The translations under genes and the position numbers were made by a program. Shown one piece after another: positions 25,850 through 28,057 of a DNA stretch of 64,000 nucleotides. The notes under the pieces were generated by a model that was not told the origin of the DNA, ran no database searches, and saw only the letters and a list, made by a program, of their open reading frames with translations. Every line of letters starts with the position of its first letter. Within the stretch, counting starts at the first letter, position 1. The DNA is from Enterococcus haemoperoxidus ATCC BAA-382. Its GTDB lineage: Bacteria; Bacillota; Bacilli; Lactobacillales; Enterococcaceae. The stretch spans positions 2,057,464 to 2,121,463 of the forward strand of contig NZ_KE136479.1 of the NCBI RefSeq assembly GCF_000407165.1, written 5' to 3'.

Positions 25850-26326
25850 ATGGGGAAGAAAGTTATTAAATTAGATTTTGATGATGTAGTTATTGCTAAT
25901 GAAGATGGGAGCACAACACGAGCATTGTATGAATGGTTTAATTTCAAGCCAGAAGTCGGTGACCTTGTTGATGTATTCGAAGATGGTGATGAATTAATCA
26001 TCCACAAAACAGAAAAAACTGCAAGTGCAACAGAAAATTTACAAGACAAAATCAATATCAATATTGTCAATGAAAATAACAATTCACAATCAGTGGGCGG
26101 CTACGTGCAACATGGTAGAGTAGTCAATAAATGGATTTATTTCATATTAGCATTTTTCTTAGGTGGAATTGGTATTCACAAATTCTACTCTGGTTTTACT
26201 GGAAAAGGAATTATGTATCTTGTATTCAGTTGGACAATGATTCCTGTAATCATTGCATTTTTCACATCAATTGCTACTTTGCTTAAACCTGCAGATCAAA
26301 ATGGAAACATTGTTGTAACTTCATAA
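25850..26326 (+). CDS. TM2-domain membrane protein
   Basis: A 158-residue protein. Residues 1-65 form an acidic, beta-rich soluble region (VIKLDFDDVVIANEDGSTTR onward), then an Asn-rich linker, then a TM2 domain at about 93-150 with two membrane helices: NKWIYFILAFFLGGIGIHKFYSG contains the TM2 hallmark G-x-H-x-F-Y, and GKGIMYLVFSWTMIPVIIAF is the second helix. TM2 proteins are widespread and mostly of unknown role. The soluble front part is unusual and not recognised. GGGGAAA precedes the ATG. The gene ends just before the dyad repeat at 26340 next to the IS110 element. Confidence 0.85.
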   Translation: MGKKVIKLDFDDVVIANEDGSTTRALYEWFNFKPEVGDLVDVFEDGDELIIHKTEKTASATENLQDKININIVNENNNSQSVGGYVQHGRVVNKWIYFILAFFLGGIGIHKFYSGFTGKGIMYLVFSWTMIPVIIAFFTSIATLLKPADQNGNIVVTS

Positions 26327-26339
26327 TAGTTGAAGATAA

Positions 26340-26379
26340 AGGGGTTGGGACAAACACTCATGAGGGCTACCGCCCTCAC
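26340..26379 (+). repeat. Half of a dyad terminator repeat interrupted at the IS110 left side
   Basis: GGGGTTGGGACAAACACTCA followed by TGAGGGC, a short loop and GCCCTCA resembles the left part of the intact element at 42951-42996. In that copy the right arm continues after CCTCA, but here the match stops exactly there and unrelated sequence begins. This suggests that the IS110 element entered the repeat. Confidence 0.5.
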
Positions 26380-26396
26380 CAAACAGAATGAAAATA

Positions 26397-26615
26397 AAGT
26401 GATCGACCTACAGGCTATTTCCTGTCATACTAGAGATGACAGAAGTGGCTTGTAGGTCGATCGCTTATTGAGGTTCTTCTCCAAGTAACCTTGAGGGACA
26501 AACTAGATCATTCTACTTATTTGCTCCTGCGGTTACTCGTCGCACGAAAAGACCTGCACCAATCATTAGGTCGTAGAACCTGCGTATAAAAATAAATTGT
26601 TTCTATAAGTAGAAT
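26397..26615 (+). ncRNA. Candidate bridge RNA in the IS110 leader
   Basis: Stem A: 26397-26412 pairs with 26451-26466 (16 base pairs, one G-U) enclosing a second hairpin CTGTCAT/ATGACAG. Stem B: ATTCTACTTAT (26510-26520) pairs perfectly with ATAAGTAGAAT (26605-26615) and encloses a loop with GACCT/AGGTC; GTAACC (26485-26490) and GGTTAC (26531-26536) pair alternatively. IS110 elements are known to encode, in the non-coding end next to the transposase, a bridge RNA whose two loops pair with target and donor DNA. Location and folding fit; loops and guides were not assigned. Confidence 0.45.
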
Positions 26616-26654
26616 AGCCTCTTCTGTACTTTTTTTCAAGGAGGAATGTTGAAA

Positions 26655-27839
26655 ATGGAAGATGTACTTCGTTCTTGTTGTGCTGGATTAGACATCCATC
26701 AAAAAGTAATTGTTGCGTGTATTATTCGTTCTGCTGAAGGGAAAAAACGCCCAGAAAAATTCTTTGGTAGTTTTGATACGACAACTCGTGGTCTTTTTGA
26801 CTTATCTGATTGGTTGACTTCTTACGAAGTCACACACATAAGCATGGAAAGCACGGGTGTTTATTGGAAATGTGTCTGGCGAATTTTACAAAATCATTTT
26901 GATTTACAGTTGGCGAATCCTCGCCACATCAAAAATATTCCAGGAAAAAAAACGGATATGAAAGATGCGGAATGGATTGCTCGTCTCACTCGATTAGGAG
27001 TCGTTCCTACAAGTTTTGTTCCACCAGAACCTATTCAGGAATTGAGAGACTTAACACGTTATCGCAAGCACTTAGTAGAAGATCTGAATCGAGAAAAAAA
27101 TCGGGGGCACATGGTCCTGCAGAATGCTGGAATCAAATTAACCTCAGTGATTAAAGATATCTATGGAAAATCTGGCAGAGCCTTACTCTATGCCTTAATT
27201 GAAAATATACCAATCACAGAGTCACTCATTCTCGAGTGTGTGTACACTACCTTACGCAGAAAAGTGCCTCAATTGCTTGAATCCCTAGAAGGATTTATGA
27301 CACCTCATTATCGTAAAATGTTAGCTCTTCATCTCACTCAAATTGAGTGCTTAGAAAAACAACTAGTAGAAGTCGAAGAAACAATCAACGATTATCTCGT
27401 TCCTTATGAAGAATACGTAGAACGTTTGGAGGAAATCCCAGGAATCAATCGAAGAACAGCGGCAGTTGTACTCGCAGAAGTGGGGATAGATATGTCTGTT
27501 TTCCCGACATCTGGACATTTGGCTTCATGGGCAGGAGCGAGTCCAGGAAACAATCAAAGTGCTGGAAAGAATCGAAGTAAACGGGTAGGAAAAGGAAATT
27601 CTTACCTAAAGAAGGTCTTAGCGCAAGGAGCACTAGCAGTTTCCCAAGGGAAACCCAATCGAATCCAAGCATTTTTCTTTCGGGTAAGAAGAAATGCTGG
27701 ACATAAAAAATCGGTTGTTGCGACCGTTCATTTATTAATACGTATCATTTATCGGATGTTTTCCGATCAGTCCCGCTATAATGAACTTGGAGAAAGTTAT
27801 TTACAAAATAGAAAGAACACTCTAACAAATAACTGTTGA
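26655..27839 (+). CDS. IS110-family transposase (DEDD recombinase)
   Basis: A 394-residue RNA-guided DNA recombinase. The N-terminal RuvC-like DEDD domain has Asp13 in GLDIHQ, Glu65 in MESTGVYWK, and Asp101 and Asp104 in TDMKDAEWIA; the C-terminal IS116/IS110/IS902 domain has EEIPGINRRTAAVVLAEVG (about 259-277) and SWAGASPGNNQSAGKNRS (about 291-308), holding the catalytic serine candidate (Ser302). All key residues are present and the frame is intact, so the protein may be active. AAGGAGG ends one base before an ATG at 26646 and ten bases before ATG at 26655; the latter is preferred. The non-coding leader in front fits the bridge-RNA arrangement of the IS110 subgroup rather than IS1111. Confidence 0.93.
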   Translation: MEDVLRSCCAGLDIHQKVIVACIIRSAEGKKRPEKFFGSFDTTTRGLFDLSDWLTSYEVTHISMESTGVYWKCVWRILQNHFDLQLANPRHIKNIPGKKTDMKDAEWIARLTRLGVVPTSFVPPEPIQELRDLTRYRKHLVEDLNREKNRGHMVLQNAGIKLTSVIKDIYGKSGRALLYALIENIPITESLILECVYTTLRRKVPQLLESLEGFMTPHYRKMLALHLTQIECLEKQLVEVEETINDYLVPYEEYVERLEEIPGINRRTAAVVLAEVGIDMSVFPTSGHLASWAGASPGNNQSAGKNRSKRVGKGNSYLKKVLAQGALAVSQGKPNRIQAFFFRVRRNAGHKKSVVATVHLLIRIIYRMFSDQSRYNELGESYLQNRKNTLTNNC

Positions 27840-27858
27840 AGCGTTCTAGACCAATTTT

Positions 27859-27896
27859 AGCTAACTACGGTTTCAGTAGGAGGTAGCTTTTTTTTG
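27859..27896 (+). terminator. Terminator-like hairpin after the transposase
   Basis: AGCTA and CTAC pair with GTAG and TAGCT with a bulge, followed by eight Ts. It would end the transposase transcript. Confidence 0.55.
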
Positions 27897-27975
27897 TTTT
27901 TTTACAGTATTAGTTTTCGTATAAGAAGCTTATTTCTGAAGGAGTTGCTTCTGATTTCACCATTTATCCGGCTTC

Positions 27976-28024
27976 CATGTGACTGGGATGTGACTCACAG
28001 AGTTATGTCCCAGTCATGTTTTTT
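27976..28024 (+). terminator. Dyad terminator repeat before clpP
   Basis: TGACTGGGA and TCCCAGTCA with outer ATG/CAT form the stem, followed by TTTTTT. Its loop contains AGAGTTATGTCCCAG, so it appears related to the GGGACAAA-type elements at 26340 and 42951. It isolates clpP from upstream transcription. Confidence 0.7.
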
Positions 28025-28057
28025 AATCGCTCTTTTTTTTTGATTTAGTGCATTAAA

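Follow-up and report, generated by a model that had tools for sequence, protein, structure and literature searches.

Published work describes the IS110 group as elements with a long left end and a short right end, and bridge RNAs have been predicted for 85.7% of them (PMC11208160). The type of system treated here is thus already known, and the locus described below is a new instance of it. In IS621, a DEDD/Ser recombinase, the catalytic roles of whose DEDD/Ser residues are known (PMC11208158), is accompanied by a guide RNA that the long left end encodes. Its left guides have the sense of the top strand, its right guides are complementary, the two overlap at the insertion point, and the element inserts into repetitive palindromes (PMC11208160, PMC11208158). 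The seekRNA of ISEc21, which has been purified and sequenced, comes from the upstream non-coding region and carries a bottom-strand match 5' of a top-strand match; insertion takes place inside IS3-family transposase genes and duplicates no target (PMC11187229). IS621, ISPa11, ISPpu9, ISPpu10 and ISRm19 share a fixed insertion place in a dispersed palindromic repeat (REP) (PMC1525189). Enterococcus is not found in the text of that report.

The stretch of DNA analysed here (the window) comprises 64,000 nucleotides of Enterococcus haemoperoxidus ATCC BAA-382, the genome of which amounts to 3.58 Mb in two contigs. It holds a single IS110-group element, located between a TM2-domain gene and clpP, and this is the only full copy in its own genome. 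A first-pass annotation had read the leader of the transposase gene as a bridge RNA. Our analysis supports that reading, in that stretches of the leader match the element’s DNA partners and change together with them in relatives. Because these guide stretches match the element’s own end and its insertion site and change in step, the leader very probably makes a guide RNA. Judging from sequence comparison, we put at about 0.88 the probability that this intact element carries in its leader the gene of a bridge RNA (seekRNA) that would direct the recombinase to its DNA sites.

The Enterococcus element thus described has much in common with the systems above. Like IS621, it pairs a DEDD/Ser recombinase with a putative guide RNA in the long left end, its left guides read as the top strand and its candidate right guides are complementary with an overlap at the insertion point, and it sits in a repetitive palindrome. 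It differs in that the target loop precedes the donor loop in IS621, whereas here the left target guide lies before the donor stem and the right candidate, tentatively, after it; and in that the core is CT in IS621 but less clear here. With ISEc21 it shares the upstream position of the non-coding region, the order of bottom- and top-strand matches and the lack of a target duplication; unlike ISEc21, its target is an intergenic palindromic repeat, and its RNA is predicted from DNA sequence. The fixed place in a dispersed palindromic repeat is shared with the REP-inserting elements, although the sequence of the repeat is another one.

Element, recombinase and insertion site

The features discussed below are collected in Table 1. 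Aligning copies, as the first-pass annotation had suggested, fixed both ends of the element from several copies together with empty sites and the orthologous locus. The Enterococcus copies have ..GACAAACAC in common on the left and TTTTCGTATAA on the right, and their sequences diverge outside the ends. In the window, GGTTGGGACA abuts AACACTC at the left junction (left end at about 26352), and TTTTCGTATAA abuts GAAGC at the right junction. The left end deviates in three copies (L040, L009 and L048), and the terminal CGTATAA on the right is identical across all full copies and both-end deletion derivatives that were read. The leader is non-coding and structured, as had been proposed, but it starts about 30 nt further out than had been assumed. 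A left end much longer than the right one, with the guide region upstream of the gene, places the element in the IS110 group as opposed to IS1111. Over 11 aligned Enterococcus copies, the left non-coding end shows a mean column identity of 85%.

Table 1. Features of the element, its leader and its target repeat (window coordinates)
Feature	Position	Strand	Remarks
Target repeat, left half	26341..26352	+	GGGGTTGGGACA
IS110-group element	26353..27924	+	about 1572 bp; shares one or two bases (26351-26352) with the target
Long left non-coding end	26353..26645	+	293 nt; holds the candidate bridge RNA gene
Small left-end hairpin	26358..26379	+	GAGGGC/GCCCTC
16-pair hairpin	26397..26466	+	upstream of the guides
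Left target guide (LTG), probable	26495..26500	+	GGGACA
Donor-binding stem-loop, predicted	26510..26615	+	arms 26510-26520 and 26605-26615
33-nt insert	26524..26556	+	in the window, L007 and L039; missing from 8 of 11 aligned Enterococcus leaders
Left donor guide (LDG), probable	26582..26589	+	GCGTATAA; copy of the right end TCGTATAA
Right donor guide (RDG), candidate	26598..26607	+	TGTTTCTATA; matches the donor junction discontinuously, as judged by eye
Right target guide (RTG), candidate	26621..26627	+	CTTCTGT; complementary to ACAGAAG across the insertion point
Run of seven T	26630..26636	+	
IS110-family recombinase	26646..27839	+	397 aa, open frame
Short right non-coding end	27840..27924	+	85 nt; terminates in TTTTCGTATAA
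Target repeat, right part	27925..28026	+	dispersed palindromic repeat of the genus

The transposase, described as intact in the first-pass annotation, is indeed encoded by an uninterrupted frame with both Pfam domains of the family, DEDD_Tnp_IS110 (PF01548, 92.9 bits against a cut-off of 29) and Transposase_20 (PF02371, 76.4 bits against 21.3). By alignment, D16, E68, D104, D107 and S305 correspond to the catalytic positions of ISCro4. Among solved recombinases, the similarity to IS621 is only distant (E 6.7e-13), with ISCro4 at E 4.6e-13; the nearest named transposase relatives are from E. crotali, E. ureilyticus and Enterococcus sp. BWB1-3. Genome G002 has, near its IS110 copy, another IS110-family gene of a different kind (positions 1-1140 of L009). 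Neither the element nor its leader nor the target repeat gave a match in plasmid records, and a protein search gave matches in 76 of these records, every one below 60% identity; no match was found in viral contigs.

The insertion site was read from three empty repeats (L087, L089 and L098), all of which have GGTTGGGACAGA.., which places the insertion at the left end of the palindromic repeat, with GGTTGGGACA before it and GAAGCTT after it. Repeat-type matches occur in 16 of 22 genomes among the matches listed; since the query consisted partly of the clpP upstream region, its tally of 22/22 genomes is not specific to the repeat. With at most one mismatch, GGTTGGGACAGAAG occurs 15 times in the own genome (four times exactly), against one occurrence of the reversed-pattern control. 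Inside the window GGGACAGAAG has two matches, against 1.83 expected by chance, the enrichment being seen genome-wide only. A single A is common to the target and the junctions, the left junctions being mostly CA and the right ones AA; a two-base core is, on these sequences, not clear.

The orthologous locus in G004 has the repeat and no element, and in G019, which showed the greatest similarity in the clpP region among the genomes searched, only a terminator stem-loop is present. Together, these two loci suggest that the terminator was replaced by the repeat first and that the element entered the repeat afterwards, so that the order at clpP would have been terminator, repeat, element. The EFAR repeats of Enterococcus faecalis are said to be mosaic miniature elements that replace stem-loop sequences, reportedly described by Venditti et al. 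in 2007. By this description, the right part of the target repeat presumably resembles them; in G019 it is likewise a terminator stem-loop that occupies the place of the window’s repeat and element.

The left tip of the element is also found apart from it. The sequence of its small hairpin recurs in small dispersed palindromes of the genus, and five intergenic palindromes (L165, L166, L169, L171 and L173, of which L171 is in the own genome) consist of the left tip and its inverse (GGACAAACACTCATGAGGGC..GCCCTCATGAGTGTTTGTCC).

Leader structure and candidate guides

Both stems named in the first-pass annotation are found, one of 16 pairs (26397-26412 with 26451-26466, including one G-U) and one of 11 pairs, all Watson-Crick. 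Folding of the 275-nt leader gave -91.5 kcal/mol, compared with -59.8 (sd 4.9) for shuffled sequences, which corresponds to a z of -6.45, with none of 200 shuffles as good. For 26466-26640 alone, z is -1.78 (9 of 200 shuffles as good), and for a homologue that lacks the 33-nt insert it is -0.99 (38/200); therefore, most of the leader’s excess comes from the 16-pair hairpin, outside which the predicted fold is not exceptional by energy. The 11-pair stem is missing from the minimum-energy folds of the 275-nt leader and of 26466-26640, while it does form in those of the insert-less homologue and of a shorter segment of the window.

Among Enterococcus leaders, double-sided changes were seen in 5 of 70 consensus pairs, all in the 16-pair hairpin; the 11-pair stem is nearly invariant within the genus, where structural covariation is limited to the upstream hairpin. 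This hairpin precedes all guide stretches and may lie outside the mature RNA. Across relatives, a helix of 8–12 pairs built from differing bases stands at the position of the donor stem in 11 of 12 sequences, and at most 14 of 500 shuffles were as good in 10 of the 12. The exceptions are L247, with 56/500, and Paenibacillus dendritiformis, with six pairs and 316/500.

Rfam models gave no match over the window at the gathering score and four sub-threshold hits in 26300-27960 at a lax threshold. Two of these four are microRNA models on the 16-pair hairpin (best E 0.0014, with 35 bits where the gathering score is 59), which we attribute to chance, given how long and perfect this hairpin is. A promoter scan found no good promoter, and its one minus-strand match compares with 0.7 expected. 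The run of seven T near the end of the leader may mark the 3' end of the RNA.

Comparison of the loop segments with the flanking DNA, again proposed in the first-pass annotation, did yield guide stretches that match the target and the donor. GGGACA equals the left target in the empty repeat, and its match to the integrated left junction extends to 26503 (GGGACAAAC). On the donor side, CGTATAA (26583-26589) is a 7-nt match to the right end. For the putative right target guide, CTTCTG is invariant in all 11 Enterococcus leaders, and the right flanks carry GAAG exactly in 8 of 17 copies and at least three of its four bases in 13 of 17. The candidate right donor guide would be discontinuous, and such a guide is described for IS621 (PMC11208160). 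Of the four guides, two have strong natural evidence behind them, one has moderate evidence and the last one weak.

Our reading of these matches is as follows. GGGACA and CTTCTGT, lying on opposite strands and overlapping at the insertion point, would jointly read GGGACAGAAG at the left end of the dispersed palindromic repeat. The stem-loop closed by the 11-pair stem would carry CGTATAA and probably the right donor guide as well, and the DEDD/Ser recombinase would use the RNA to join the circular element with the repeat and to exchange strands. We infer transcription of the leader, its binding by the recombinase, the recombination itself and both right-hand guides. With the left target guide at the 5' foot of the stem and CTTCTGT as the right one, the target loop would enclose the donor stem, an arrangement that we propose tentatively.

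Guides and their DNA partners in relatives

Relatives were drawn from a search of 395 genomes of the order, of which 31 have a match at E <=1e-60, with Paenibacillus dendritiformis in addition; their recombinases are about 37–52% identical. Their leaders share the layout found in the window, and each of those read has its left target guide at the foot of the donor stem, on the 5' side.

For the left guide, the seven bases preceding a common AAAC anchor were compared between the guide and the element’s own left junction in nine lineages (G109, represented by L240, was excluded, its left end being unrecognised). They agree at 48 of 63 positions, against a permuted mean of 23.1, and the only one of 362,880 permutations to reach 48 is the true pairing, although the lineages are related and such counts, here and below, are not strict probabilities. 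The copies were chosen by the analyst: G046 is represented by L245 (6/7) and not L246 (2/7), and Enterococcus by the window (5/7) and not L009 (2/7). With these two worst copies swapped in, 41/63 positions agree, against a permuted mean of 21.3, and 12 of 362,880 permutations do as well. Over all 15 copies, 75 of 105 positions match, L009 and L246 being the poorest copies. A small change followed on both sides was seen in L237 (G391), which has GGGAAA in guide and flank, its near relative L234 having GGGACA in both. No empty sites were found for the relatives, so that in them the bases of the left match may belong either to the target or to the element tip.

The donor guide was likewise compared with the right end (excluding G080, whose right end was unrecognised). 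The summed common stretch is 55, against 45.4 in permuted pairings, a value matched by 37 of 100,000 permutations. At the eight core-adjacent positions, 6 or 7 match in each of ten lineages, and the guide follows the right-end variants TATAA, TACAA, AAATAA, AAACAA and ATATAA.

These joint changes bear directly on what else the leader could be. It might be a regulatory 5' untranslated region that limits read-through transcription or translation of the transposase, the matches to end and target being by-products of recombination. For ISPpu9, an IS110-family element of Pseudomonas, sRNAs and a structure in the 5' untranslated region are reported to regulate the transposase (PMC8450116). The strongest structure in the leader, the upstream hairpin, is also the one with compensatory changes, and the outer stem in the predicted fold of L026 reaches the Shine-Dalgarno region. 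However, a regulatory role gives no account of guides that track the left junction and the right end across lineages, and we consider it improbable as the whole explanation; the regulatory and bridge RNA roles can coexist. A still less probable view takes the leader to be chiefly a dispersed repeat of the EFAR type that captured an IS110 transposase, with a structure that belongs to the repeat and not to a bridge RNA. Leader copies without a transposase are common in the genus and form mosaics with other repeat modules, which speaks for this view, but homologous leaders of the same layout precede the recombinases of other genera and Paenibacillus, so that the association of leader and recombinase is old. 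Moreover, the five copies that have lost internal sequence and retain both ends of the element look as deletion derivatives should.

Within the bridge RNA reading, the right target guide may have another position. CTTCT is also present at 26476-26480, before the left guide, and if the right target guide were there, or elsewhere, the target loop would be shaped differently. Reading by eye, no counterpart of the 3' candidate is visible in the relatives, which speaks for such an alternative; against it, the 3' candidate has the greater length, with 7 nt, and contains the invariant CTTCTG, whereas the upstream stretch is CTGCT in L010, and the order reported for IS110 elements places the top-strand match 3' (PMC11187229). 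We therefore regard a different location as rather unlikely, though a good deal less so than the two readings of the leader discussed above.

Transposase-less leader copies

The less ordinary part of the case is the population of leader copies that lack a transposase. In the genus, 27 of them could be read through and were classed, a set that excludes copies running into a contig end. Five have an internal deletion and retain both ends, the donor guide GCGTATAA is the exact endpoint of four (L036, L044, L045 and L068), another four end at 26606-26614, 17–25 nt after it (L037, L043, L070 and L071), and 14 end elsewhere; thus 8 of 27 end at or just past the donor guide. Three of the four with their endpoint at the guide (L036, L044 and L068) continue into the repeat module found after full elements. 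Either the recombinase or a simple deletion between 7-bp repeats may have produced the ends at the donor guide.

Three copies at different places of genome G016 (L038, L039 and L040) share one deletion, 26641/27645. This is compatible with an element that bears the guide RNA and was moved in trans, and also with recurrent deletion at a short repeat. In ISEc21, the non-coding region acts in trans and mini-elements move (PMC11187229). The miniature elements in the portion of the literature examined derive from IS982 and IS1182, with no IS110-derived non-autonomous element carrying a bridge RNA among them.

The window’s 33-nt insert is the unit that is tandemly amplified in several leader copies of G016. 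Tandem 32-bp units lie inside the transposase-less leaders L035, L036, L037 and L038 of this genome, and 39-bp units in L042. The insert unit was also seen singly in a different dispersed repeat (..CTTTGAAACATGCCAAGAAACACAACGAAG..TGCTCCTGCGATTACTCGTCGCACGAAAAGACTTGG..) of G006 and G013, at nine or more loci (L055-L063).

These copies, taken with the proposed architecture of the RNA, allow a more speculative reading, in which recombination takes the donor-guide DNA GCGTATAA, a copy of the right end, as a surrogate for that end. The transposase would be lost in this way and short repeats left behind, and the target loop would enclose the donor stem. The bridge RNA gene would then double as a recombination site of its own element, and the resulting short elements would keep most of the guide RNA, spread or persist between genes and gain tandem 32-bp units. 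We hold this combination of claims to be doubtful, and put it forward as a possibility only.

For the family, the elements assembled here form a naturally varied Gram-positive set of IS110-group guide RNAs, with fixed ends, empty targets and guides that change with their sites, and the set would be useful for testing the retargeting of bridge RNAs. The transposase-less copies whose endpoint is the donor guide point to a way, open to testing, in which RNA-guided elements become short dispersed repeats. If the surrogate-end reading is true, the dispersed repeats of enterococci would in part be fossils, or trans-mobilised passengers, of an RNA-guided recombinase.
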